Shown: in pieces, positions 3,255 through 26,189 of the stretch
Layout: every line of letters begins with the position of its first letter
Position numbering within the stretch: position 1 is the stretch's first letter
Assembly: GCA_012840965.1 (NCBI GenBank)
Contig: DUVQ01000082.1
Location: 1 to 34,457, forward strand
Length of the DNA stretch: 34,457 nucleotides
Direction of reading: 5' to 3'
Source: Oligoflexales bacterium
GTDB taxonomy: Bacteria > Myxococcota_A > UBA9042 > DTJE01
Notes under the pieces: model-generated
Told to the model about the DNA's origin: nothing
Seen by the model: only the letters and a program-made list of their open reading frames with translations
The model's database searches: none
Translations under genes and position numbers: made by a program

Positions 3255-3509
3255 CTACTTAAATGATGGCTCTTTAGCAGACTGAAGCATTGGCTCCATA
3301 AAGGATTTCTTAAGCTTAGCCAGTCGATCGAACTTTACCTTAACACGAGCATCTGTGTACAAGGTAGAAGGTTTCTTAATTTCACCGTCGATCAAAGTAT
3401 CCGAGAAGTCGTAGAACTTAGACTTAACATCACGAGATTGCGCCATGGCTGGAGCAGCAAACATGACAACTGCAACCAAAGCAAGCATCAAACCAAATAC
3501 GCGCTTCAT
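3255..3509 (-). CDS. Small secreted protein at the end of the Glt-like operon (GltF position)
   Basis: An 84-residue product with a clear signal peptide (MKRVFGLMLALVAVVMFAAPAMA, cleavage after residue 23) and a 61-residue mature part rich in Lys, Asp and Phe (for example KFYDFSDTLIDGEIKKPS). No cysteine and no membrane helix are present in the mature part, so it should be a soluble periplasmic protein. The start is supported by GTGAGGTG a few bases upstream. It lies 59 bases after the GltE-like lipoprotein gene, the place held by gltF in the M. xanthus gltD-gltE-gltF set. I cannot show homology to GltF from sequence alone. Confidence 0.75.
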   Translation of the reverse strand: MKRVFGLMLALVAVVMFAAPAMAQSRDVKSKFYDFSDTLIDGEIKKPSTLYTDARVKVKFDRLAKLKKSFMEPMLQSAKEPSFK

Positions 3510-3568
3510 GTATCACCTCACCGGCCAAAGCCGCGGTAATTATGCCACAACCTGCGGCACCGTTTCAA

Positions 3569-4978
3569 CTACTCAGCTGCAGGCTCTGCCGCAGGCTCAG
3601 CAGCTGGCTCCGACACAGGCTCAGCAGCTGGCTCCGACACAGGCTCTTGGGCCGCTGGAGCTGGGGCAGGAGCCGCACCATCTTCAGCTGGAGCCGCACC
3701 CTCAGGCGCTTCCTCGTCCATTGGCGTCAGGAACAGGTCACCCTGCTCATGCATCTGCTTCAGCATCGGAAGCTTGGCTACGATTGGATCGTTGGCTGGA
3801 GGATGGGCCTTGGCTATGTACATTTCGTAGTATTCAATGGCCTTTTCAAGATTGTTCAGCTTGGATTCATAGAGCTGGCCAATCCTTGCATACATCTCAC
3901 TTCTATCTGGGTTCAATGTCAGAACCTTCTGCCAGCGTTCAATCGCTTTTTCAAACTGAAGCATTCCAAAAAGTGCAGAACCCGACCCAATCAAGGCTTC
4001 CTCACAGTCAGGTACCAGCTTCAAGGCAACATCGTACTGCTCTAAAGCCGCCTGATAGTGCAGGAAGTTCAAATAGATGGCTGCAACGTTCATCCGCGCT
4101 TCAAAGTTGTCAGCATCAGACTCAACCGCCTTCTCAAATGAAGCAACGGCCTCTGGCATCTTGCCCATCTTCACATAGGTGATTCCAAGATTAGACCAAG
4201 CCTCAGTCGAGTTCGGGTCCTCGCGCAACACCTTTTCTTCGAAAACCCACCTGGCAATGTTCAGCTGTCCAGCCATCAGGTTAATCAACCCACGAGTATT
4301 CAAGGCGACCACGTTATGTGGCTCAAGCATAAGGACTTTTTGTACAAAGTCTTCTGCAAGCTTGCTGTTGCCTCTGTACAGCCAATAAAGGGCCATCGAG
4401 TTGTTCGCAGTGGTGTTATCTGGGTTGTCGGCGATAATCTTGTCAAACAGCGCCTTAGCCTTTTGTTCGTACTCAACGGCCTTGTTAGTATCACCAGCAT
4501 CTCTCTCGCGCTTGGCCAAAGCCAAGTAAACCTTGCCCACATAGCCTTCAGCGTCGAGATTACCTGGGTTCGCATCGGCCGCGTTCTGATAAACCTCAAC
4601 AGCTTGTAGCGGCCTACCAGTACGCTCGTAACACATCCCAAGGTTGAAATATGCCTCCAGGAAGCCCTTATCAAGCTGGATAGCCTTTTCGAAAGACTTG
4701 ATGCCAGTAGCGTAGTCAGGAGGAGTTTGGGATATTGCTACAACCCCAGTCCTGAAAGCGTCCTGAGCCCCCTTATCGACCCCTTCGACATATTCGGGCT
4801 CGGCCGGCGCTACCACCTCTCGCATAGTCAAATCAGGACCTTTTTTAGCCGCAGGAGCAGCCTTAGCCTCTTCACCCTGAACGACCTGGTCAGCTTTACG
4901 CTCTGCTGCAGGACCGGCGCAAGCCACCGCGAACGCCACCACAAACAACAGGCCAAATTTTGCGAATCTCATAGTCAT
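3569..4978 (-). CDS. TPR lipoprotein resembling GltE/AglT
   Basis: 469 residues. A lipoprotein signal peptide ends at AFAVAC (Cys20). About nine tetratricopeptide repeats span roughly residues 70-410 (for example GIKSFEKAIQLDKGFLEAYFNLGMCYERTGRP). The C-terminal tail of about 45 residues is Pro/Ala/Glu-rich, built from PVSEPAAE-type repeats. Length, lipid anchor and repeat layout match GltE (AglT), an outer-membrane TPR lipoprotein of the myxobacterial gliding machinery. The ATG overlaps the previous stop as ATGA (4975-4978), and a strong AAAGGAGG lies seven bases upstream inside the previous gene, so the two are translationally coupled. Alternative: a generic TPR lipoprotein; the gene order argues against that. 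Confidence 0.8.
   Translation of the reverse strand: MTMRFAKFGLLFVVAFAVACAGPAAERKADQVVQGEEAKAAPAAKKGPDLTMREVVAPAEPEYVEGVDKGAQDAFRTGVVAISQTPPDYATGIKSFEKAIQLDKGFLEAYFNLGMCYERTGRPLQAVEVYQNAADANPGNLDAEGYVGKVYLALAKRERDAGDTNKAVEYEQKAKALFDKIIADNPDNTTANNSMALYWLYRGNSKLAEDFVQKVLMLEPHNVVALNTRGLINLMAGQLNIARWVFEEKVLREDPNSTEAWSNLGITYVKMGKMPEAVASFEKAVESDADNFEARMNVAAIYLNFLHYQAALEQYDVALKLVPDCEEALIGSGSALFGMLQFEKAIERWQKVLTLNPDRSEMYARIGQLYESKLNNLEKAIEYYEMYIAKAHPPANDPIVAKLPMLKQMHEQGDLFLTPMDEEAPEGAAPAEDGAAPAPAPAAQEPVSEPAAEPVSEPAAEPAAEPAAE
3592..3646. repeat. 24-base tandem repeat in the tail of the GltE-like gene
   Basis: Bases 3592-3615 and 3616-3639 are identical 24-mers, followed by a 7-base start of a third copy. 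They encode the Pro-Ala-Glu/Ser tail of the TPR lipoprotein in frame, so copy-number changes would lengthen or shorten the tail by eight residues without a frameshift. Confidence 0.9.
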
Positions 4979-7900
4979 CGCTGGGCCTCCTTTATCATTT
5001 TGACTTCAACTTCACCACGGCGAAGTGTCCGGATAAAACTGGTGGACGCCAAGGTATCTTTCATCCTATCAGGTGAAACCAATGGGTCGCCAGAAACTGG
5101 GAATGTGTCCTGGTTGACCTTAACGGCGTACTGACCACACAGCGAGGACCACTTGTTGTAAACCTTTTCCTGGTGGGCAAGGTTCAAAGCCTTTTCAAAG
5201 GCACGAAGGGATTTTTCTTCAACTGGGCGAGCGATTTCTTCCAAAATGGCCATGTACATCGACTCGGTTTCCCAATCCAGCCCCTCGGGAATTGGAACGT
5301 TCAAGAGCTCTTCTTTGAATTCGTAATACAGCAATCCAATCTTGAACAACGCACCAGCGGACCAACCACCGGATTTATAGTCCAAAACTTGATTGAACTG
5401 AGTTTCCGCCTTCTGCTGTGCCTCGGCCTTGGCTTCCAAACCACGCTTCAAGGTGTATGGGTTCAAAGTCGAAGGAATCCGAAGAGCCGCAAAGTCATCG
5501 TAATAGTAGTCAGCCAGCTCGAAAGCCGCCTGCGCTGCATATCCTCTAGCAGATCTGATCAGGTCCCCTTCTCCGCTAAGCCGGTTGAACGTCTCAACAG
5601 CCAGCTGGAACAAGGTGCTTGCAGCCTTGCGGTTTTTGACCTTGTCAATCTGTTTAAGACAGTCACCAGCTCTAGCCGCTGCTTGAACAGACAGGTCTGG
5701 GCGCCCAAAATTGCGCTTCAAGAAGGCCTGGTAGTGATCGTGAGCACGCTTCAGCGATGCAGGATCCCCTTGATTTTCATATACAATTCCAATCCTCAGG
5801 AAAATCTTTGGAACATCGGGATGGCCCTGGAAATGATTTACAAACTTCTGGTAAACATCAATAGCCGCCTTTGGATCTGACAAGGCCTCTCTAATCAAGC
5901 CTGCGTTTTGAAGAGCATCAGCCATCTGTTGCTGGAGGTCTTTCCAAGCAGCCTTTTTCTCTGGCTCGGTTGGCTCCTTGATGGTTCTAAACTGCTCCAT
6001 GCTTTCAAAGGTCTCCGCGGCCTTTTTAAATTCAGTCTGGCTTTCATAAATCAAACCGATCGTGTAGATGGCCTCTGGAGCAACCTCAGATTTTGGGAAC
6101 TCCTTGACCACACGCAGGTACGTCTTGACTGCCTTGTCGACTTCTTTTTGGCTCTCATACAAGGAAGCCACGTTAAAGAGCGCCTTCGAAGCGGTCTCTT
6201 CTTGGCTTCTGAACTCTTCATAAACACGCATGGACTCGCTGATAGCGTTATCATAACGACGCTCAACTGACAGCAGCCTAGAGTTTTCAACCATGGCGAT
6301 GGCTACGATTTTTTTCAGGTCCTTCTCGGAACGCACAGTGAAGTTGCGGGCAGCAATCAGCTTTCTTGCCCACTCTTCAACCATCGGCCACTGTTGGAGT
6401 CGCTGATAACAGTCAAGCAAAGTAAAGACCGCGTATGCAGCAAACTTGGAAGACGCATCGTACTCGAACAAGGTCTCAAGCCGCTGGACTGCATCCTGGA
6501 ACTTACCGTGACGGTAAAAGACGTCAGCCGCAATAAACATGATTTCAGGAATCTTTTCACCGCGTTCAGGATTTTTCTTGCGGACTTCTGGGTCCTTGAT
6601 GAGCTCGGTTAACAGTTCAACGTACTTGTCAGAAGCCTTGATGTAAGTTTCTTCCAGTGGATGAAGGTCCGTCTCTGGAATCGGCTTGTCAGCCTGCTTC
6701 GGGTCAACCTTGACCACTTCCATTCTGCCGCTCTTGGCGACTTGCTGCAGGCCCTCCTTGACCATCAGCTCTTGGGTTGAATAAATCACACCAAGCGCCG
6801 CGTCCTCAACATATTCACCCTTTGTGTCACGCTGAATAACAGCTTGATATTGCTCGGATGCATGTTCGTAGTCCTTCAAGACGTCGTACAAAATTTCAGC
6901 ATAGTAGAAGTTGACGACATAGGCATCCTTACTGTCCGCGAACCTGGACAAATAGGTTGCGTAGCGGTCAGCCGTCTTTTGGTAGGTATCGCGACTGTTG
7001 GTCTTTTGAGCATCCCTGTGATAGTAGTTCGCGATGAAGCGCAGATTCTTTTCAGTCAGAGCGTCAGCTTCTGCAAGGATGTCCTCGTTAGCCTTGTTAA
7101 CGGTGCGCCAAGTGCCGTTTGGCTTAAAGTACTCAAGGATCTCGGCGACCATGTTATCAAGCCCGCGAATGTCATTTGTTGAGGTGTAGATTCCAATAAT
7201 GATTTCAAAGTATTCAACAATCTTGGGCGTGGTCTTTTCACGCTCGATGAAGTGGCGGAAAATGGCCTCGGCTTCCACAAACTTTGACTGTCCCACGTAC
7301 AAGTCACCAAGCATTCTAAGCTTTGCATAGGTTTCTTCATCAGGCAGGATCTTTTTGAAGTAATCACGAGCCCTTACCCAGCCGTTATCAACCTCGGCAT
7401 AGGTGACCACCAAGTCGTTCAAAGCCTGATTCTTGAACTCGATGATACCCTTGCCACCGCTTTTTTCAGCAGACACCTGGGCAACGACCTTGTGGAAGGT
7501 ATCGATGGACTGTTCGAATTCAGACAGGTTGAAGTAAACCCAAGCAAGCTTGTACAGCGCGTAGTTGTACATCGAAGACTTGGGGAACTTCTGGATGATG
7601 ATCTCGTAGTTCTGCTTGGCAAACCACATGGAGTTCGTTTCAAAGTAGTACTCGGCCAAAGCAAGGTGAGCCTCAGCAATAAACCTGCTCTTGGGATAAT
7701 CCTTGACCAAGCGGTTTAGATACTCGGAACCTTCCTTTTGCAGCAGCCGATTCTGCTTGGTCTTGCCCTCTTTCATCGCGCCTTTGCCGAGGTAGTAGTA
7801 AACCTCGTCAACACGTGGATAGGAGGGGAATGACCGCAAAATTTCCCTGTAATATTCCAGGGATTTGGAATAATCCTCAATCGGCTCGGGCGGCGGCTCG

Positions 7901-8283
7901 CTTAGAGTGCCGGCATAAACCTGCTCCATCGCCTTGTCCCACACATCGCGAGCTTGGAGGTATTGATAAAGCCCCTCCTCCCAGTAGTTTTCCGCCAGCA
8001 TGTGCATTACTTTGGGGGCACGGTCAGGGTCCTTACGATACTCAGGATTTTGAAGAAGTCCCTCAAGTTTCCTGATGTTTTCCTGGCGAACGCCGGAAAT
8101 TTCACGCATCTTTTCGGCGACTTTTTCGTTCATTATCCGTTCAGCCTGTTCAAGACTGAACTGACCACCCTTTACACCACCTTCTGGTGCTTGGGCATCG
8201 GCCTTAGTACCATTTTCCTGGGCAAACGCTAAACCAGGTAGCGACACTGCCAGGAAAAAAAGAGTTGCAATCGATTTTCTCAT
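4975..8283 (-). CDS. Large periplasmic TPR protein resembling GltD/AgmU
   Basis: The 1102-residue product has a signal peptide (cleavage after LPGLAFA, near residue 22) and then almost continuous helical repeats, with TPR-like units such as KSLEYYREILRSFPSYPRVD and KNYEIIIQKFPKSSMYNYA-like segments. It has no membrane helix after the signal peptide. Its size, export signal and repeat content match GltD (AgmU), the long periplasmic TPR protein of the M. xanthus Glt complex thought to bridge inner- and outer-membrane parts. The start at 8283 is chosen because GAGGGG lies just upstream; the reading frame runs 17 codons further without such support. It overlaps the GltE-like gene by four bases and follows the GltC-like gene by 54 bases. 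Confidence 0.8.
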   Translation of the reverse strand: MRKSIATLFFLAVSLPGLAFAQENGTKADAQAPEGGVKGGQFSLEQAERIMNEKVAEKMREISGVRQENIRKLEGLLQNPEYRKDPDRAPKVMHMLAENYWEEGLYQYLQARDVWDKAMEQVYAGTLSEPPPEPIEDYSKSLEYYREILRSFPSYPRVDEVYYYLGKGAMKEGKTKQNRLLQKEGSEYLNRLVKDYPKSRFIAEAHLALAEYYFETNSMWFAKQNYEIIIQKFPKSSMYNYALYKLAWVYFNLSEFEQSIDTFHKVVAQVSAEKSGGKGIIEFKNQALNDLVVTYAEVDNGWVRARDYFKKILPDEETYAKLRMLGDLYVGQSKFVEAEAIFRHFIEREKTTPKIVEYFEIIIGIYTSTNDIRGLDNMVAEILEYFKPNGTWRTVNKANEDILAEADALTEKNLRFIANYYHRDAQKTNSRDTYQKTADRYATYLSRFADSKDAYVVNFYYAEILYDVLKDYEHASEQYQAVIQRDTKGEYVEDAALGVIYSTQELMVKEGLQQVAKSGRMEVVKVDPKQADKPIPETDLHPLEETYIKASDKYVELLTELIKDPEVRKKNPERGEKIPEIMFIAADVFYRHGKFQDAVQRLETLFEYDASSKFAAYAVFTLLDCYQRLQQWPMVEEWARKLIAARNFTVRSEKDLKKIVAIAMVENSRLLSVERRYDNAISESMRVYEEFRSQEETASKALFNVASLYESQKEVDKAVKTYLRVVKEFPKSEVAPEAIYTIGLIYESQTEFKKAAETFESMEQFRTIKEPTEPEKKAAWKDLQQQMADALQNAGLIREALSDPKAAIDVYQKFVNHFQGHPDVPKIFLRIGIVYENQGDPASLKRAHDHYQAFLKRNFGRPDLSVQAAARAGDCLKQIDKVKNRKAASTLFQLAVETFNRLSGEGDLIRSARGYAAQAAFELADYYYDDFAALRIPSTLNPYTLKRGLEAKAEAQQKAETQFNQVLDYKSGGWSAGALFKIGLLYYEFKEELLNVPIPEGLDWETESMYMAILEEIARPVEEKSLRAFEKALNLAHQEKVYNKWSSLCGQYAVKVNQDTFPVSGDPLVSPDRMKDTLASTSFIRTLRRGEVEVKMIKEAQR

Positions 8284-8337
8284 GCGCCCCTCATAAAAAT
8301 TGATAGTCGGCTGGCGGTTTCCAGCAATAAACACATC

Positions 8338-10257
8338 TTAAAAGAACGAATCATCAGTGCACTGGGAAGTCAACATGCTCCTGTAATAGGAGATCTCGTC
8401 GCGCCAGTACTCACCTTCAAAGGGCCAAACTTCGGTGTCATCACCGACAACGGCCACCTTACCACTGGTAACAACCTCAGCCTCTTCCTCAGATGCCTCG
8501 CCAACCATACGTTTGGTCTCTTCAGTCATCTGGTTGATGGCCATCATGTTGATGTCGACTTCAATCTCGGTTTGTTGAACCAGTGCTTCGTTAATGTCTG
8601 CATCGAGGGTGGTCAGGATCTGCTGAACCTTGATTCCACCTCGAACGATGCTTTCTTTCTTCAGCATCGCCAAACGAGCGAGCATTTCCTGTCCAAAACT
8701 GCCAAGGCGCCCTTGATTGGCTCTGAATTCACGGTCTTCCTTCTCGATCTGCCTAATGGTTCGATAAAGATTATAGAACTCAATGTTAGAAAGAACGGGA
8801 TAAACCAGCTTATCATCCAGCTTCATCGCACTAGGCTCGCCATTAACGGCCGCCACAAAGTTGTTGTAAAAGTCTTCCGGAGACTTTTGCGCGTTGATGA
8901 AGGCTCGAAGTGGTACCTGAGTACTGACAACGTCCCTTTCAAACATTTCAAGCGCCCTCTTGGCACGATCTGGATAGCACAAGTCACCGTAGGCGCGGGC
9001 CTCAAGAATCCACAGCTCTGGGAAGAAGGTTTCGGCAAAGTAAGGTGAGTGCAGGGTATGGAATGAACCCAAAGCCCTGGAATAGTCACCCTTCATCATG
9101 TAAGTCCAGGCCATTTCATAGAAAACAACGCCAGCCTTGGATGAACTTTGAGGGACCTTCTTGTAATAGAAGATGGCCGCGTCATAGTTACCAGCCTCAT
9201 AAGCTATACGAGCCAAAGCCATGTAGCCAAGATCGCGGATGACAGAGTCGCCCTTTTGCTGCTCAACGGCCACGATAGCACGCTGCAGTGACTCGACTGC
9301 AGACTTGTACATTTTGTAGCGAACCTGAATAAGCGCAGTCAGGTACCTAGCCTTTGGTCCGTCGGGCGCCGAATCCGGCACTGCGTCAAGGTGCTTTGTT
9401 GCCCTTTGGAAGTTATTGAAATCAAAGAAGTATTCTCCAAGAACATAGTTGTACTGATCCTGGAATTCGCTGCTAAACCCAACGGTCGAAAAATCAGGCA
9501 AACGCTCAAGATCCGGTGGATTGTAGATGATTTCAGCGCGAAGCTTTCGAAGGGCCAGGAAAGCCTCCTGGAAGAACGGCTTATCAGGTCCTTCAAGCAC
9601 CACGTCAACCAACATCTTGGCCGCACTTTGGTATAAGCCAGCGTTGGTAAGTGCAGCGGCAATGCCATAATTGGCGTTGTATGCTTCGACTGAGCCTGGC
9701 GGGTAGTTTCCATCACGAACGAAGTTCTGGAAAACTGTCAAAGATTCCACCCATTTCCCCTGCTCCGCAAGGGCAAGACCATCACGCAAAACCCCACGAG
9801 CGTAGGCGCTGCGTCTGGCTTCCTCGGCCTTTCTGGCCTCTTCAGCGCGACGACGCTCTTCTTCGGCCTTGGCCGCCGCTTCAGCAGCCAATTCCTCGGG
9901 GGTCTTCATCTTCTGCACTTCAACAACAGGCGCTGGGGCCGCAGTCGCACCACTGCTGCTCGTAGTGGCGGTGCTAGCAGTTGCGGCGGGGGCACCGTAA
10001 AGTTGCTGGGTACGCATCATGTGCTGAATAACACCATCGGGCACACCAACCTTCTTGAGCTCAAGGATGTCACCTATCTGAAGGCTAAAAACGGTGCGAT
10101 CCTTGTCAATCGCCTTCACGATGTCGGCCTCGGGAATCCCAAGACCAACCAGTGTGACGATCTCCTCAACCGTGATAGCGTGAGCCTGCGTGGTGATAGC
10201 CGTAGTCAGCCCGAAGGCGACTGCAAATATTAGCGCTGGCTTAAATATCTGGTTCAT
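8338..10257 (-). CDS. Periplasmic TPR protein resembling GltC
   Basis: 639 residues. The signal peptide ends at QAHA (about residue 27). Residues 28-90 form a small helical module ending in KKVGVPDGVIQHMM, a motif seen in several exported proteins. A Thr/Ser/Ala/Pro linker follows, then a charged Ala-Glu-Arg helix (about 120-155), then TPR-like repeats covering about 155-460 and an extra helical C-terminal region ending in CTDDSFF. GltC of M. xanthus is a periplasmic TPR protein of similar length encoded next to the barrels GltA/GltB. Here too the gene sits directly after a barrel gene, 73 bases away with a hairpin between them. GGTGG precedes the ATG. Assignment rests on architecture and order. 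Confidence 0.75.
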   Translation of the reverse strand: MNQIFKPALIFAVAFGLTTAITTQAHAITVEEIVTLVGLGIPEADIVKAIDKDRTVFSLQIGDILELKKVGVPDGVIQHMMRTQQLYGAPAATASTATTSSSGATAAPAPVVEVQKMKTPEELAAEAAAKAEEERRRAEEARKAEEARRSAYARGVLRDGLALAEQGKWVESLTVFQNFVRDGNYPPGSVEAYNANYGIAAALTNAGLYQSAAKMLVDVVLEGPDKPFFQEAFLALRKLRAEIIYNPPDLERLPDFSTVGFSSEFQDQYNYVLGEYFFDFNNFQRATKHLDAVPDSAPDGPKARYLTALIQVRYKMYKSAVESLQRAIVAVEQQKGDSVIRDLGYMALARIAYEAGNYDAAIFYYKKVPQSSSKAGVVFYEMAWTYMMKGDYSRALGSFHTLHSPYFAETFFPELWILEARAYGDLCYPDRAKRALEMFERDVVSTQVPLRAFINAQKSPEDFYNNFVAAVNGEPSAMKLDDKLVYPVLSNIEFYNLYRTIRQIEKEDREFRANQGRLGSFGQEMLARLAMLKKESIVRGGIKVQQILTTLDADINEALVQQTEIEVDINMMAINQMTEETKRMVGEASEEEAEVVTSGKVAVVGDDTEVWPFEGEYWRDEISYYRSMLTSQCTDDSFF

Positions 10258-10292
10258 TATTCCACCATCCCGTCTAGGAACTCAAACCGTCA

Positions 10293-10309
10293 TCCCGAGA
10301 AACTCGGGA
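10293..10309. promoter_or_regulatory. Intercistronic hairpin between barrel and GltC-like genes
   Basis: A perfect 7-base inverted repeat (TCCCGAG/CTCGGGA) with a three-base loop lies in the 73-base gap. There is no T-run after it on the minus strand, so it is not a classic terminator; it may protect the 3' end of an upstream processed mRNA or be a short dispersed palindrome. Confidence 0.55.
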
Positions 10310-10330
10310 CGCAGGTAATGCGCCAGAAAA

Positions 10331-11101
10331 CTACTTAGGCGCTGGCGTGAAATACCCCAATCCCAGGGTGATTTCCGCAAGGGAGCGAACACCGTTGCTC
10401 CACTCTGACTGCCCTCTGTCTGGCAGCGCTGGGAAAATGTAATGACGATAGTCAAGGCGTAACGCCAGATAATCAGTCAAAAACAGGTGGAACCCAAGGC
10501 CCAGATTAGCCATCAGGTTAAAGGGAACCGCGTCTCCATAGGACTTCCTGGTTACCCATTTACCATCCTGCTCTTTTTGTGACCCAAGGATACCCAGGCC
10601 CACCAGCAGACCAATATCAAAGCTGGTCAGCTTGGTGGTGAACAAGGACACCTTTCCGTGGACAGGAGCCCAATAAACATTTAAGCCTGCGTACCACTGT
10701 ACCCTTTCAGGCAATTGGACCCCTTGAATAGCACCACCCGAGAACTCCAGCAGATCCTTGCGGAGGCTGCTCGAAGAGGATGGCACATAGGCGCCAGCCA
10801 CTTCCAGGGCGACACTTTCCAGGAAAAAGTAATCGTACCTTAGGCCTACTGGAAAGTAGTTGAAAAAGGAGTCGTTGGGAATCATCCCCAACAAGATTCC
10901 TATCTCGTGACGATTGGCCTTTTCGTACACGCGCTTCTGAATGACCTTCAGGTCCCTCTCTTTACCCCAGACTTTGTCGAATTTCTGGTCCAGGACCGTT
11001 TGTTCATTCTCCTGTCCCATTGCCATTGGAACCGCGGCAAACAAGACAACGAAGCTGACCATGGCCCGTAGCGCCCACCTACCATTCATGACTACCCTCA
11101 T
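10331..11101 (-). CDS. Outer-membrane beta-barrel protein, GltA/GltB-like
   Basis: The 256-residue product has a signal peptide (MRVVMNGRWALRAMVSFVVL..., cleavage after AMG near residue 29) and then alternating amphipathic strands with aromatic residues: GILLGMIPND, FPVGLRYDYFFLESVALEVAGAY, VQWYAGLNVYWAP, LMANLGLGFHLFLTDYLALRLDYRHYIF, and a last strand LAEITLGLGYF. This fits the outer-membrane barrel family described for myxobacteria, which includes the gliding proteins GltA and GltB. The ATG at 11101 is preferred for its AGAGG eight bases upstream; an ATG at 11089 is possible. It follows the VWA lipoprotein gene by 92 bases in the same direction. In M. xanthus the barrels help hold the adhesin CglB at the surface. 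Confidence 0.8.
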   Translation of the reverse strand: MRVVMNGRWALRAMVSFVVLFAAVPMAMGQENEQTVLDQKFDKVWGKERDLKVIQKRVYEKANRHEIGILLGMIPNDSFFNYFPVGLRYDYFFLESVALEVAGAYVPSSSSSLRKDLLEFSGGAIQGVQLPERVQWYAGLNVYWAPVHGKVSLFTTKLTSFDIGLLVGLGILGSQKEQDGKWVTRKSYGDAVPFNLMANLGLGFHLFLTDYLALRLDYRHYIFPALPDRGQSEWSNGVRSLAEITLGLGYFTPAPK

Positions 11102-11193
11102 TGCTTCAACCTCTTCAAACGGCATTTACGCCGATAAAGCCACATTTCAAAAGCCGGGACAAACCGTCTGGCTTTCCCGATACCGACAAACCA

Positions 11194-13545
11194 TTAAGGA
11201 CAGGTAGTGCCGTCGACGCATTCTCCGCTGCAGCACACCTTCTGATCACCGCACTCAGTACCATCATCCTGCCCCTCGCAGGGGTTAGCTGCTGGGCACT
11301 CGGTGGTGTTGTCAAGACATGTTTCATTACAGCAGACGCCATTGTCGCCACAGGGTTCGTTGTCTGCAGCCCCTTCACACGAGTCGCAGCTGCTTCGGCG
11401 GACACACTTCTCCTGACAGCAGACACCGCCTTCACATTCGGTGTTGTCTGGCTGACCTACGCAAGCCGCATTGGGGTCTTCTTCGCAGGTGTCCCCACGG
11501 ACACACAGTTCATTACAGCAAACACCGTCATAACATGGGGTGTTATCAGGCTGACCTACACAGGCTTCATTGGGGTCATCTGCGCAGCTGCTTCGGCGAA
11601 CACACATCTCATCACAGCAGACACCGCCTTCACATGGGGTGTCGTCTGGCTTGCCCTCGCAAGGATCCCCTGAACCACCGGTACAGTTGGATGCACCAGC
11701 CTTGCATTCACCTTCACAACATACACCACCAGTACAAGCCGTAGCGTCCGCCTTGTTGGTCACGTTGCAAAGTTCATCCCGAGTCTGGCACTCGTTCACT
11801 TCAACGCAGCTGCCCCAACAGCAAACGCCTGCATCGTCACAAGCGCTGTCGTCGGCCTTCCAGCTAGAGGCACATACCCCATCTGCAACCCTACAGGCTT
11901 TTTGTGAACAATCTGGGTCTGCCAGTGGATACCAATCACACGAATCACCACTGATACAGGGGACCCAAATAGAACCGCGAGTGTCGTAGTTGGGAACTGG
12001 GGTGGTCCCGACGTGGCCAATCCTCAAAGGCAGAGGATAGCTTTGCAGGACCCTAGTTTCGTTAAGTTCGACAGTGCCGGCAAGGGCTAGATTGGCGCCC
12101 AGAGGCAGCTGGCCTCTGTTTTCCAAATCGGCGTAATCAACCGCAACAGTCCATGTTCCACCCATCGACCCACGCCATCTCTCAACCGCATTGTTAATGG
12201 CAGTACGAAGCCCATCTGGGTTTGTGTTGTTGTTGGAGATGTCTCTTCCGTTTACAAACAAGTAGTGTCCACCAGTCAGACACGCGATTTCCTGCTGTCT
12301 GACGTCTCGTTCGGGATGGGCCACTGACTGCAGCTGTATAAAGCTGACGTGTACCGGCAACTCTTCCATGGGCAGGTAATTGCCGCTGGGGTCTTTGATA
12401 TCAGCCAGCACAGTATTTAAGAAGTCGTCGTAGCTCACAGTCGAGCATGATGGCTGTTCCACTTTTGAATATGTTTTAGTAGCACTTCTATAGAGCCGAT
12501 AGCTGGGTTTATAATCGGGAGAGTCTGGATGACAGGTATCCGGGCTGTCAGTAATGACCAAGATGTGTCTGACATCAGCTCTGCCCTTTTCCTTCATGAA
12601 ATTGTAGACGTCTTGGACAGCCGACCACAGGGGAGTTCGTCCTGCGGGGTTGATCTGGAGGTCAGTATAAGCATTGGAATTTACAAAGATATCACGGTCA
12701 GTACCGTAACAATCCTGACGTCGTTCATCTTCGGTGCCATCAGGCATGAGGTCACAAACTATCTTAGCCGTTAAACCGAGTTGCTCGGAGAACTGGAATA
12801 CTCCGGCCAAAACGTTTTTATTCAACTGACCAAACAGCGCTTTGACAGCCAAGGAACTCTGGCTTTCAGGGTCGGTACCAAGTGGGCTGAAATTTGATGG
12901 CCATGGGCCCAGCGATCCAGGCTTAACTTCGGCCAATCCTTCAGCATCAATAAAGCCCTTGATGGAGCCAGACTGGTCAAACATAACGGCAACCGCCATT
13001 GCATCCTTGTCTGATACAGGACGACGAAAGCCACCACCAAAGTACCCTGCAAACTCAACCTGATTTGCCTGGGCATTGGATGGACCAGTTTTGTTGCCTT
13101 GGCATTTCGGATCAGCGCTGGTCAGGTCCGCGTCTGGATATGGCTCAACACAGTCGATGTTAACTTTGAAATCGGCACTGGTAAGGTCCAAAACTTCGCG
13201 GACAGAGCTTTCGCCGGCGCTCTTCTTCACCAAGTCACCAGGCTTCATGGAAGAATCAAAGTCTTTATCCTGCGAGGTGGTGCCACTCTTTTCGGTTCCA
13301 ACAAGGTTTACCGAAAACATTAGCGCGTTAGCTTTCCTGCTGTCCGTTGGGCCACACTGACGAGTGTATTTGCCCTCGGCATCACGATGCGCTGGAAAGA
13401 CAGAGACGAATTCCATCTGCTTAAACTGGAACGTACTAAGTACAGCTACCCAGCGGTAATTGCACGCTCCAAAGACAAGAAGCGCCAACAGACCTGTAAA
13501 AATTATCAATTGTCTTGGACGCTTTCCAAGGGGAGATCGCATCAT
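11194..13545 (-). CDS. VWA-domain surface lipoprotein with Cys-rich repeats (CglB-like adhesin candidate)
   Basis: 783 residues. The signal peptide ends in LLVFGAC (Cys28), a slightly unusual lipobox with Phe at -3. Residues about 180-470 form a von Willebrand A domain with an intact metal-ion adhesion site: DQSGS at 190-194, Thr304 in GRTPLW, and Asp333 in LVITDSPDT. A linker domain follows, then from about residue 550 a Cys-rich region, with 33-residue six-Cys repeats (pattern CxGxPDxTxC...GVCCxExC) from residue 628. CglB, the gliding adhesin of M. xanthus, is also a lipidated VWA protein; the long repeat stalk is an addition. The ATG is chosen because GAAGGAG lies upstream at correct spacing. 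It heads the Glt-like gene run and has its own candidate promoter. Confidence 0.85.
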   Translation of the reverse strand: MMRSPLGKRPRQLIIFTGLLALLVFGACNYRWVAVLSTFQFKQMEFVSVFPAHRDAEGKYTRQCGPTDSRKANALMFSVNLVGTEKSGTTSQDKDFDSSMKPGDLVKKSAGESSVREVLDLTSADFKVNIDCVEPYPDADLTSADPKCQGNKTGPSNAQANQVEFAGYFGGGFRRPVSDKDAMAVAVMFDQSGSIKGFIDAEGLAEVKPGSLGPWPSNFSPLGTDPESQSSLAVKALFGQLNKNVLAGVFQFSEQLGLTAKIVCDLMPDGTEDERRQDCYGTDRDIFVNSNAYTDLQINPAGRTPLWSAVQDVYNFMKEKGRADVRHILVITDSPDTCHPDSPDYKPSYRLYRSATKTYSKVEQPSCSTVSYDDFLNTVLADIKDPSGNYLPMEELPVHVSFIQLQSVAHPERDVRQQEIACLTGGHYLFVNGRDISNNNTNPDGLRTAINNAVERWRGSMGGTWTVAVDYADLENRGQLPLGANLALAGTVELNETRVLQSYPLPLRIGHVGTTPVPNYDTRGSIWVPCISGDSCDWYPLADPDCSQKACRVADGVCASSWKADDSACDDAGVCCWGSCVEVNECQTRDELCNVTNKADATACTGGVCCEGECKAGASNCTGGSGDPCEGKPDDTPCEGGVCCDEMCVRRSSCADDPNEACVGQPDNTPCYDGVCCNELCVRGDTCEEDPNAACVGQPDNTECEGGVCCQEKCVRRSSCDSCEGAADNEPCGDNGVCCNETCLDNTTECPAANPCEGQDDGTECGDQKVCCSGECVDGTTCP
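11386..11664. repeat. 99-base repeats encoding six-Cys modules
   Basis: Two full units and one partial unit of 99 bases (33 codons) lie in tandem within the VWA lipoprotein gene. They encode near-copies of C-x-G-x-P-D-x-T-x-C-x-x-G-V-C-C-x-E-x-C-V-R-x-x-(S/T)-C. More diverged units lie on both sides, including the last 63 codons of the gene. The similarity at DNA level suggests fairly recent duplication. Confidence 0.85.
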
Positions 13546-13702: not shown

Positions 13703-15814
13703 TCAATAAGAAGTTGAAACTACCTCAACCTTATCGGCATCTATCTCAAAAAGCAGCCCATTTCCAGTATCGACGCCATAAATTGTGGTACCAAATACAG
13801 CTAGGTCACCTGATGAAAGGCCGGTTAAAGATTGACCCTTCGATACAAAACCGGAAACGACTTGGAATTTTAGTTGGGTGTCTCTGGCGGTTGGAACTGT
13901 CTCTGGCAGGAAATCTCGCCCAGCGCGGCAACCAGGAACAATCCTGAACTTGAAAATCGGATTTTCAAACAAAGCTGCATTCCAGACATCAATGTCGAAT
14001 TGTGGGTCCGCCTCGCGAATTGGACATGATGAAACTCGGCCACCAAGTTCTTTCGGGTATGGTTCGTATGCCCTGGAGTTAAACAAGGGGTTTACGTTGG
14101 CTGCATCAACGCAAGCGTCGCCTTCGGAAACCCTGGGATGCAGAAAGCCACTTTTAGAACCAACGACAGACCAACCTAGGGCTACTCGCACCTCAAACAG
14201 GACGGGGCCTTCAAAGCAGCCTGGCTCTGGTAGGGGCACTGATAAGTAAGCTGGTTCAAGTGTCAGGCGTGTCTTTTCAACTTTGGCAATGCGATATTCC
14301 AGGAATTCACCTTTGACCAAGCCACAATCAACCGGAAGATTAGGGGTAAGAACCACTATGTCGCCGATGCCAATCGAAGATGAATCGGAGTCTAAAACCC
14401 CTAACGCACAAAAATCGGCGTCTTCGTCAACCAATTGAACAACACCTGCATCTGGGTTATCAAACTCTAGGGTTCCAACGCGCCTAGTCCCGGGGATTAC
14501 TCCTTCATTGGTCACAACCCATGTTTCATTAAGCATTTCCTTGGGTTCTGAGACAAACTCAATGCCGTAATAGCTCTTTTTTTCGTCGCTTAAGACTTTA
14601 ATCTCCGCTAAACCAAAGGACGGAAGGTCAGATCTATTAAGGTAGGCAGATGAAAACCATTCGCCGTTGTATCTGGTGCTGATACTTGAAGCGGCGCTGG
14701 TCCCCTGCTCTTCGGCGGGTTCCAAAACGTGGGTGACAAGAAATTCTTCAGTGGGTTCAACCACAATTCTGACAAATGTGCCGTTTTCCATGGTGGCTAT
14801 TGCCCTTAAGCTTTCTTCGATGGTGACGAAAACAACTGCAACAGCCGGAGAACTTAACAGGATGTCTTTAAATCCAAGCTCTTCGAGATATTTGTTTCCA
14901 ACCCCATCCTCGCCAGTAGCATTTACATCAAGGCGCTCAAGGTCGCCATCGAAAACGGCAATTGCTCCGGGCTCACCAAGTGGCAGGTAAACGATACTTC
15001 CATCAGGGGAAATCGCGGGGCGTCCCCTAAGTCTGGAGACTGTGCGTTCGCCTTCAAAATCATAGGCTTTTCCTGTCAATCTGCCAGCATCACCAATTGC
15101 GACTGAGTCGACCGTGGTGCCAGCCAGATCTACCTTGGATAAAATGTCCCCGAAGATAGCATCTGAATCGGTGCCAATTGAGGTCACATAGGCGCTAAGG
15201 CCATCCTTGGAGGTTTCCATTTTTAGGGCGATTCCAGGGATATCCCAAGTGTCGACGCCTTCTAGGTCTACATCACCGAGATCGGCCACTGGTAACGCCC
15301 AAATCTTTGAATGCGCACCGCATGTTCCAAGAACGAGGACGACAGGGGCGTCTGCCACTTTACCAAGTGCAAGGTCCTTGACATCACAAGTCAAAGGCTG
15401 CCTTATGAAATCCCAAGATTTGCCAAGATTGGAAAGCGGCAAAACCGCAAGTGATGGTCCCTTTGAGACGTCATCTACGGTAAGAAGCGAATAAACATTT
15501 TGCAGGTCCGCCCTGATGGCGATAGGGGCCCCTCCAACTGGAACCGTGTTAAACCCAGGCACGAAGGAGTCCGAGTCATAGTGCAGCTTGGTAGTTATGT
15601 CCAAAATGGACAGCCCCCTGCTACCTGCATCCAAGATCCAAGCGGTTTTAATGCCAGACTTGCTTACGCAGTCCTCTTGATTCAACTGGTTTCCTGAATC
15701 ATCTGCGCAAGTTACGACCATTCCTACTGGCAACTTGATTAGCCTAGTTTCATAGTCAATCTTGTCCGAGCAGGCCGATATAAAAAGCAGTAAAAGCAAA
15801 GCTACTACACGCAT
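13703..15814 (-). CDS. Large lipoprotein, probable beta-propeller
   Basis: 703 residues with a good lipobox (LLLLLFISAC, Cys15). The first 350 residues contain repeated strand-turn segments of the kind seen in WD/YVTN propellers (TAWILDAGSRGLSILDITTK, RPAISPDGSIVYLPLGEPGAIAVFDGDL). The second half holds another beta-rich region with several cysteines. I do not recognise a specific family. It starts one base after the stop of the preceding propeller lipoprotein gene, so the two are almost certainly co-translated and may act together at the outer membrane. A role in the neighbouring surface complex is possible but rests only on proximity. Confidence 0.7.
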   Translation of the reverse strand: MRVVALLLLLFISACSDKIDYETRLIKLPVGMVVTCADDSGNQLNQEDCVSKSGIKTAWILDAGSRGLSILDITTKLHYDSDSFVPGFNTVPVGGAPIAIRADLQNVYSLLTVDDVSKGPSLAVLPLSNLGKSWDFIRQPLTCDVKDLALGKVADAPVVLVLGTCGAHSKIWALPVADLGDVDLEGVDTWDIPGIALKMETSKDGLSAYVTSIGTDSDAIFGDILSKVDLAGTTVDSVAIGDAGRLTGKAYDFEGERTVSRLRGRPAISPDGSIVYLPLGEPGAIAVFDGDLERLDVNATGEDGVGNKYLEELGFKDILLSSPAVAVVFVTIEESLRAIATMENGTFVRIVVEPTEEFLVTHVLEPAEEQGTSAASSISTRYNGEWFSSAYLNRSDLPSFGLAEIKVLSDEKKSYYGIEFVSEPKEMLNETWVVTNEGVIPGTRRVGTLEFDNPDAGVVQLVDEDADFCALGVLDSDSSSIGIGDIVVLTPNLPVDCGLVKGEFLEYRIAKVEKTRLTLEPAYLSVPLPEPGCFEGPVLFEVRVALGWSVVGSKSGFLHPRVSEGDACVDAANVNPLFNSRAYEPYPKELGGRVSSCPIREADPQFDIDVWNAALFENPIFKFRIVPGCRAGRDFLPETVPTARDTQLKFQVVSGFVSKGQSLTGLSSGDLAVFGTTIYGVDTGNGLLFEIDADKVEVVSTSY

Positions 15815-15815
15815 T

Positions 15816-17084
15816 TTACTTTAACCTCTCGATTTCCTGGTGCCAATTCTCACTGGTGGGGTCCAAATCGACAACACTTACGGTACCCTCTTCAAAATTG
15901 GCAACCCAGGCCATATCACCAGCAATTGCAAGCCCATATGGACCACCACCGATTGGAATCCTGTCGACAAGGAGCATGGAAACAGGGTCAACGGCATACA
16001 AAGCATCTGAAGTAAACTCGGTAACGTACACAAGTTCCCTACCTGGCTCTGGGGCGTAAGTGGCGACATAACCAACCTTGCCATAAAGCGGCACCAAGGC
16101 TCTTGGTACTGGACGACCATCTTGGCCAAAATACAGTATTGCCAATGATGACGGCGAGTTAAACGCACAGTATAGCGCCGTACCATCCAAAGAAAGGGTC
16201 ATTCCACGGAAATAATCGCCTGTTGAACTTACCTGATCCCAGCGAACAGGCTCGTCAACCACCACATCGACCGTGCCGTCTGAATTAAAGGTGACGTTGA
16301 CGATGTGTATTACCGCCTGTATGCGATTGCTGACAATCAGTACGCGGTTTCGCGGGGTAACTTGACGTTCGATAATCGAATGGATACCTGGAGCAAGGGT
16401 TGCTCCTTTGCGAAAGACCGGGGTTCCATCGGAGTCTAATGTGAAGATTAGAAGGGCGCCATCAAGCAAGCTGCCAAGGTAAAGGGGATTTATCTGAGCG
16501 CTGTCGTCATCTTGGCCAGGCAAGGGGGCCCCAATGGCGATGGCATAAGGGTCGCCAGCATCTGGGGTGTCTTCTTGCAAATCCTCGGGCACGCTATCCT
16601 TCATCAAAGAGGTGACCTCTAGGCGACGGCTATCGTCGCAGATTGCCAAGCCCTTGTTTTCGGATTCAGAACAAGCAAAGGCAATGCCTTCATCGGTTCG
16701 AACAAGGTCCAGATGAATCAATTCATCATCGTCTCGGATCGCGATGTAGGCCTTTGTGGAAACCCCGTCCGCGTCGGTCAGCAAGGCCATTTCCCCGGCA
16801 AAGCTTCCAACTTCAACGGCACCGGCAGACACCACCTTCTTGGTCGAAACTTCGATTGGGACGATGGTGCCACCGGAATTACTGCCGTCAAAATTGGTTG
16901 AGACCACATACACCCAGTCACCGGACGAGTCAGCCACGACGGTGCTGGGATATGTGAACTTTGCAGGGTCAGGCCTGGGGGCCCTTGTGATGTTGTCACA
17001 TCCTGAAGATGAAACCAGCGTCGCAATCCCCAGGACACAAACCAAAACCAATCCCTGGACGCCAAGGAAAGTGCGGTTCAACAT
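15816..17084 (-). CDS. YVTN-type beta-propeller lipoprotein
   Basis: 422 residues. A hydrophobic leader ends in LVSSSGC (Cys29), a lipobox with Ser in place of the usual Leu at -3. The rest consists of propeller-like repeats: YPSTVVADSSGDWVYVVS, GMTLSLDGTALYCAFNSPSSLAILYF, LVYVTEFTSDALYAVDPVSMLLVDRIPIGG and PYGLAIAGDMAWVANFEEGTVSVVDLD, the last being a textbook YVTN unit. GTG at 17087 and ATG at 17084 are adjacent possible starts, both behind AAGGGGG. The gene begins about 22 bases after the ppdK stop on the same strand without a visible terminator, so it may be read from the glyQ-glyS-ppdK transcript. Ligand and partner unknown. Confidence 0.75.
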   Translation of the reverse strand: MLNRTFLGVQGLVLVCVLGIATLVSSSGCDNITRAPRPDPAKFTYPSTVVADSSGDWVYVVSTNFDGSNSGGTIVPIEVSTKKVVSAGAVEVGSFAGEMALLTDADGVSTKAYIAIRDDDELIHLDLVRTDEGIAFACSESENKGLAICDDSRRLEVTSLMKDSVPEDLQEDTPDAGDPYAIAIGAPLPGQDDDSAQINPLYLGSLLDGALLIFTLDSDGTPVFRKGATLAPGIHSIIERQVTPRNRVLIVSNRIQAVIHIVNVTFNSDGTVDVVVDEPVRWDQVSSTGDYFRGMTLSLDGTALYCAFNSPSSLAILYFGQDGRPVPRALVPLYGKVGYVATYAPEPGRELVYVTEFTSDALYAVDPVSMLLVDRIPIGGGPYGLAIAGDMAWVANFEEGTVSVVDLDPTSENWHQEIERLK

Positions 17085-17108
17085 CACTAGCAGGCCCCCT
17101 TTTGCCTT

Positions 17109-25160: not shown

Positions 25161-26189
25161 ATGGCAAGCATGGTTTTCAGCTGCACAAACTGCCAAACCA
25201 AATATCGACTCAAACTTACTGAGAAAATGAGCAAAACCAACCGGTTCACCTGTCGCAAATGCGGTCAAAAGCTGTATCTGGTGATGCCCAATGAGAACGA
25301 TCCAAACGGAGCTGCGTATGCCATTGAAGATATGCCGAATTCTACTTATGCGCCCCCAGAAAACAGTGAAAATCGCACAAGCAGGCTTCAGATTATCGCG
25401 GGAAGTGGGCAGTACCCCCAGACAGAACAATCACAAACTACAGCAGAATTTCCTGCTCCGCCCCAGCAAGATTACCCTGCACCCGGCCATGACAACCTAA
25501 ATATTGTCAGAAAGCCTTGGCATGCGACCAGTCCCAACGTAGGTAGTCTGTGGGCAACTGAAACTTTAGACCAAGAAAATCAGGCTTTTCACAATCCTTT
25601 TATCCCAGGTCATCATCTAGGTGACCCTCAAAATCCCTTTGCAGCCCACGGAGTTGCAGACAGCGCACCCTTGACTGGGCGCCATCCATCTGGTCAGTAC
25701 CAAGCCGTCCAAGAACCAAATCAGCAGCCGGGACAGTTTTCACAAAAGATTTTGGAACAAAAGCGTAAACGCAGGATTTTCATAGTCTCCATTGTTGTAG
25801 TAATCCTTCTTGCTGCCGCTGGTGCCGCGGCCTTTTTCTTGTGGGACACGGGCGAGCCGGCCTCGATCCCTGAGGTTGCTACAACGCAAGCACCTGCAGC
25901 AGTGCATCCTGGAACCTCTCGTCAAAACCAGATGATTATGTACAGCAAGCAAGATCACCAGCGCTTTTTAGCTTGTAAGGCTTCAATGGATCCTCCACCA
26001 CAAGCGACTATTGATGTCAAACTTGAGCTTATTGTAGCGCCGTCTGGATCGATAGAATCTCCGCTCGTGGAACCTCAACGCGGGATAGCCAGCCGGCCCC
26101 TAGTTGAATGCATAAAGGAAATTGTAGCTAAGTGGCAATTTAGCGCTGAAAGTGACCAAAGCAGGCACTCTTTGAATTTAAGTTTGTAA
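25161..26189 (+). CDS. Zinc-ribbon, single-pass membrane protein with AgmX/TonB-like C-terminus (short GltJ-like)
   Basis: 342 residues. An N-terminal MJ0042-type zinc ribbon has Cys8/Cys11 and Cys31/Cys34. A 150-residue Pro/Gln/Asn-rich disordered linker follows, then KRKRR and a membrane helix at about 206-228, predicting a cytoplasmic N-terminus and periplasmic C-terminus. The C-terminal domain (about 283-330) reads IDVKLELIVAPSGSIESPLV...LVECIKEIVAKWQF, the pattern of the AgmX/PglI C-terminal domain, related to TonB C-termini. GltJ (AgmX) of M. xanthus has the same order plus a GYF domain and further TonB-like domains, both missing here. It may be a minimal inner-membrane partner of the TPR/barrel system at 3-13 kb; that link is inference. 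ATG at 25170 is an alternative start. Confidence 0.75.
   Translation: MASMVFSCTNCQTKYRLKLTEKMSKTNRFTCRKCGQKLYLVMPNENDPNGAAYAIEDMPNSTYAPPENSENRTSRLQIIAGSGQYPQTEQSQTTAEFPAPPQQDYPAPGHDNLNIVRKPWHATSPNVGSLWATETLDQENQAFHNPFIPGHHLGDPQNPFAAHGVADSAPLTGRHPSGQYQAVQEPNQQPGQFSQKILEQKRKRRIFIVSIVVVILLAAAGAAAFFLWDTGEPASIPEVATTQAPAAVHPGTSRQNQMIMYSKQDHQRFLACKASMDPPPQATIDVKLELIVAPSGSIESPLVEPQRGIASRPLVECIKEIVAKWQFSAESDQSRHSLNLSL

Follow-up and report, generated by a model that had tools for sequence, protein, structure and literature searches.

Known Glt-type systems

In Myxococcus xanthus, a single AglRQS motor drives both the Agl-Glt gliding machinery, which consists of GltA-K, AglRQS and CglB, and the Nfs spore-coat complex encoded by nfsA-H (PMC3858216). 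In the gliding machinery, GltA/B stabilise GltC (PMC4488436), GltJ is an MglA effector (PMC12288465), and Glt recruits and carries the VWA adhesin CglB (PMC13104615). Transport of NfsD is independent of MreB (PMC3858216). A gltC/D/E/G-aglRQS core complex has been described for other Deltaproteobacteria, Gammaproteobacteria and Fibrobacter (Luciano et al. 2011, PMC3169522). Glt genes that are clustered or present in several copies, and likewise Nfs, have been reported before (PMC3169522, PMC3858216). A paralog set headed by a VWA gene and ended by GltJ was not found described in the literature searched, which was limited on CglB and GltJ, and prior notice is possible.

The window analysed here, a stretch of 34,457 nucleotides from an Oligoflexales bacterium (contig DUVQ01000082.1), is contig C16 of genome G000 (GCA_012840965.1; 3.09 Mb, 218 contigs, 95.7% complete). 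It encodes a set of six homologs in a conserved order, which belongs to a clade of its own; a VWA lipoprotein gene is linked to it, as is GltJ in other families. The set resembles the Agl-Glt machinery in its barrel, its GltC/D/E/F-like proteins and its VWA outer-membrane lipoprotein, and a motor, GltG-like and GltJ-like proteins are encoded elsewhere in the genome. In contrast to Agl-Glt, it has only one barrel, forms a separate paralog clade that is missing from M. xanthus and scores below the equivalog cut-offs, its VWA protein is not recognisably CglB, and MglA was not detected in the genome. The nfs locus is similar in its contiguous barrel-C-D-E-F genes and encodes the M. xanthus proteins placed closest to the set in the trees, but its order is barrel-barrel-C-D-E-F-G, with two barrels and the GltG-type NfsG, without GltJ and without a VWA gene that could be found in the locus, whereas the window set has one barrel and no GltG. 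The gltC/D/E/G-aglRQS core complex likewise has clustered genes for TPR transducers, but it is G-type with a linked motor, and a VWA lipoprotein was not reported there (PMC3169522). CglB and CglD are also outer-membrane lipoproteins with a VWA domain, and CglB loads on the Glt complex; the window VWA protein differs from them in its long Cys-rich tail and its operon linkage, and its profile found no match to them in the M. xanthus genome.

The six-gene set

All six genes are encoded on the minus strand, reading from 13545 to 3255. The initial annotation had recognised in them the types and order of the outer-membrane and periplasmic half of the Glt machinery, and this is borne out by profile matches of set members to the OMP_myx_plus, GltC, GltE and CglF/GltF models. 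The set is headed by the gene of the VWA lipoprotein (11194..13545), followed by an outer-membrane beta-barrel protein similar to GltA, GltB, NfsA and NfsB (10331..11125), which matches TIGR04565 OMP_myx_plus with 93.8 bits at a cut-off of 60. The next gene (8338..10257) encodes a GltC-like periplasmic TPR protein of the window-type paralog, which matches NF033756 over nearly its full length (179 bits, E 1.4e-52). A large GltD-like periplasmic TPR protein of 1119 aa (4975..8334) was assigned by its TPR repeats, a family profile and the GltD tree; NCBIfam offers no specific model for this ORF, and the family profile scores M. xanthus NfsD at 498 bits. The set is completed by a GltE-like TPR lipoprotein (3569..4978; NF033758, 97 bits) and a small GltF/CglF-like periplasmic protein of 84 aa (3255..3509; NF033764, 40.4 bits, E 2.2e-10).

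The GltC, GltE and CglF models cover most of their length in the window proteins. The scores of the GltC-like (179 bits), GltE-like (97 bits) and GltF-like proteins (40 bits) are below the NCBIfam equivalog cut-offs of 450, 225 and 90 bits, respectively, and these proteins are therefore regarded as homologs and not as certified orthologs. The spacing of the genes is operon-like, as neighbouring genes either overlap, as the GltE-like and GltD-like ORFs do by 4 bases, or are separated by at most about 75 bases. An ORF on the plus strand (3445-4182) shares bases with the GltE- and GltF-like genes and was regarded as spurious.

The VWA lipoprotein

The protein at the head of the set is a putative surface adhesin, characterised by its lipobox and by a MIDAS alignment covering 24 loci. 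Its lipobox reads ...VFGAC, and its MIDAS motif is intact, with the residues DQSGS, RTPL and TDSPD. A lipobox and a VWA domain with MIDAS, the features expected of a CglB-type adhesin, are thus both present, and the suggestion that an adhesin candidate heads the set holds. Homology behind its proposed similarity to CglB was not detected: a search of the M. xanthus genome with the VWA profile returned solely a BatA-like protein with 17 bits and did not pick out CglB. A Pfam search with the window VWA protein itself gave zero matches; its relatives in families f30 and f43 pass Pfam VWA/VWA_2. The nearest solved folds in a profile search were weak matches to integrin I-domains and to the apicomplexan gliding adhesin TRAP. 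A single-sequence AlphaFold model was discarded at a pLDDT of 34.

The last 263 residues of the window VWA protein contain 46 Cys, and this Cys-rich tail is shorter or absent in the VWA proteins of other loci. The first MIDAS motif, D-x-S-x-S/T, is retained in all 14 class members aligned. In families f19 and f28 and in some other non-class members, the first Asp is lost in the alignment. Because f19, f28 and part of the other families have lost MIDAS residues, binding through a metal is not a trait of all these proteins. A complete f19 genome encodes two further VWA lipoprotein paralogs (G162:C1:2437289-2438674 and 2890520-2891965).

Phylogenetic placement

The correspondence to the M. xanthus gliding set that the initial annotation had drawn is not upheld by the trees, both of which are unrooted. 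Window-type GltC proteins form a clade with support of 100/100, and M. xanthus GltC falls outside; in the GltD tree, of which M. xanthus GltD is not among the rows, the corresponding clade has a support of 100. The next split in the GltC tree joins NfsC-like rows to the window clade with 98/96, the NfsC row being a long branch, and in the GltD tree the window clade groups with NfsD-like rows with 99. In an AU test, pairing of the window clade with gliding GltC was not rejected (p = 0.074).

With the window GltC-like protein as query, the best score in M. xanthus was 88 bits, compared with 202-396 bits in six families. Across the five genomes of M. xanthus AM003, Archangium lansinium, Myxococcus qinghaiensis, Citreicoccus inhibens and Corallococcus carmarthensis, the best score was only 94 bits. 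The difference between at most 94 bits in these genomes and 202-396 bits in the six families indicates a third system that is missing from those five. The window set belongs to a third paralog clade, here termed J-type, whose support in the GltC tree is strong (100/100) and which is distinct from both gliding Glt and Nfs. In the same genome, a second copy of GltC on contig C3 matches the GltC model (NF033756) with 259 bits, compared with 179 bits for the window copy. On the basis of the separate clade in the trees and this lower GltC-model score, assignment of the window set as the gliding Glt ortholog was rejected.

Gene order across Myxococcota

Loci were read as six-frame fragments searched with profiles. 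The gene order is conserved in relatives and is not a matter of chance: it is kept in 15/15 class loci from 7 families, being complete in 13 and, in the 2 others, consistent as far as the contigs reach. The order VWA-barrel(s)-C-D-E-F-GltJ is shown by 13 loci of six other families (f19, f28, f30, f42, f43 and f48). In these 13 loci, the VWA gene was found in 11/11 with upstream cover and GltJ in 11/12 with downstream cover; GltF and GltJ were undetected in locus L203. The terminal GltJ-like proteins of these families have a zinc ribbon, a TM segment and a TonB-like tail, and a GYF domain where checked. Wherever the upstream flank of a window-type locus is covered, the locus has a VWA-family gene at its head. 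Neither a GltG nor a GltJ gene adjoins the set in the window's class.

Among 80 GltC-type loci, a VWA gene was found in none, GltG is present in 24, and GltJ is represented by one marginal match of 31 bits. The absence of the VWA gene from these 80 loci, the presence of GltG in 24 of them and the association of VWA and GltJ with the window clade indicate that a VWA lipoprotein of its own accompanies the J-type Glt machine. In family f6 (L024, L025, L026), both the barrel and the GltF-like gene occur twice in the set. Contiguity, which had been thought to set the cluster apart from M. xanthus, was rejected as a special trait, because nfsA-H is contiguous in M. xanthus (L193; PMC3858216) and barrel-C-D-E-F-G sets are common. 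A Myxococcaceae-like barrel-barrel-GltC locus was encountered in an entry titled 'Comamonas sp. KCTC 72670' (L101; BNCN01000003.1), which is probably mislabelled or contaminated.

Glt-type genes outside the set

The genome encodes further Glt-type genes on three other contigs. Contig C3 carries a second set of the order GltC-(D+E)-F-G with GltC (259 bits), GltF, an FHA GltG (227 bits) and a TPR lipoprotein; its GltD and GltE are fused into a protein of 1411 aa (L011:4781-9016), a fusion that also occurs in the relatives L027-L029. On contig C12 (L052:7078-10917), a GltG-like protein of 152 bits is encoded in which, as judged by eye, four predicted N-terminal TM segments replace the FHA domain. 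Directly downstream lie a TolQ-like gene and two TolR-like genes, a combination that corresponds to AglRQS. Contig C214 (L058:5742-8845) encodes a GltJ-like protein of 121 bits beside two OMP_myx_plus-type barrels, which are closer to M. xanthus GltA/GltB than the window barrel is. The GltG-like proteins of C3 and C12 and the GltJ-like protein of C214 all score below the equivalog cut-offs. The motor that was expected elsewhere in the genome is thus represented by the AglRQS-like genes on C12, together with GltG-like and GltJ-like genes.

The statement that the window is devoid of motor genes stands for AglRQS and has to be amended for GltJ, since a GltJ-like protein with a zinc ribbon, a TM segment and a TonB-like C-terminus is encoded at 25161-26189 on the plus strand, 12 kb upstream of the set. 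It matches NF033768 with 20.5 bits, which is below the cut-off, and the J profile with 33.9 bits. This protein is a possible inner-membrane partner of the set.

MglA, which had likewise been looked for elsewhere in the genome, was undetected in G000 and in nine classmates (G002, G003, G005, G009, G011, G013, G015, G017 and G019), while in four non-class controls, the genomes of M. xanthus and of families f14, f19 and f30, it was found with 68-100% identity. Matches to small GTPases were not accepted as MglA, since they represented long reading frames or a protein similar to EngB. All ten MglA-negative class genomes keep Glt-type sets.

Proposed function

On balance, the set probably encodes those components of a trans-envelope transducer of the Glt/Nfs type that reside in the outer membrane and the periplasm, and serves to carry a VWA surface adhesin in connection with a motor. 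Together, the barrel and the GltC/D/E/F-like proteins would build a complex in the outer membrane by which the VWA lipoprotein is held on the cell surface. The AglRQS-like proton-driven motor encoded on C12 may push this outer complex, and its force would pass via inner-membrane arms with TonB-like tails, for which the GltJ-like protein of C214 and/or the GltG-like protein of C12 are candidates. The metal site of the VWA protein could then grip a surface, a polymer or a partner cell while the complex moves or is pulled. The adhesion role of the window set is suggested by the VWA domain. As MglA was undetected, control must differ from that in M. xanthus.

A role resembling that of Nfs is conceivable, albeit unlikely: the set might move or anchor a polysaccharide or coat at the cell surface; the VWA protein would bind this polymer, and motility would not be involved. 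The barrel-C-D-E-F order shared with nfs (L193; PMC3858216), the grouping of the window clade with NfsC-like (98/96) and NfsD-like rows (99), the undetected MglA and the MreB-independent transport of NfsD (PMC3858216) all fit such a polymer mover. However, Nfs has GltG and not GltJ, no VWA gene was found in the nfs locus, and its apparent kinship is tempered by the long NfsC branch and by the AU test, in which the GltC pairing was not rejected. Even less probable is a static adhesion or envelope scaffold, in which the outer-membrane complex would show the VWA protein together with two further lipoproteins and would not be coupled to a motor. The class operon indeed has no inner-membrane or motor gene, and two extra lipoprotein genes precede the set in the window's family. 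This reading is opposed by the GltJ gene found behind this set in 11 of the 12 covered loci of other families and by the AglRQS-, GltG- and GltJ-like genes that the class genome retains.

It is very improbable that the set is orthologous to the gliding set of M. xanthus and hence a true focal-adhesion gliding machine. The protein types match and an adhesin candidate is present, but the trees disfavour this view with a separate clade for both GltC and GltD, the C3 copy is the better fit to the GltC model, MglA was undetected in ten class genomes, and the VWA profile gave no match to CglB.

Beyond the proposed motor-coupled carrier of an adhesin, a more far-reaching and rather doubtful scenario assumes two old contiguous Myxococcota machines, a G-type (C-D-E-F-GltG) and a J-type (VWA-barrel-C-D-E-F-GltJ). 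The focal adhesion of M. xanthus would combine the two, because it has GltJ and CglB and its Nfs paralog has neither, and the J-type of the class would be a motor-driven adhesin carrier without MglA. The J-type machine bears on the origin of bacterial focal adhesions, since lineages with MglA and lineages without it both inherit an adhesin candidate, a barrel, a TPR transducer and GltJ together. The J-type set allows one to ask which parts make the Glt machine adhesive and whether control by MglA came later.

Lipoprotein genes upstream of the set

Two lipoprotein genes (13703-17087, minus strand) are located upstream of the VWA gene, a linkage that is limited to the window's own family. The product of the gene at 15816..17087 has weak beta-propeller repeats. 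The adjacent lipoprotein (13703..15814) has no Pfam or NCBIfam match; orthologs are encoded at the same place in L012-L016, and its neighbour suggests that it is propeller-like as well.
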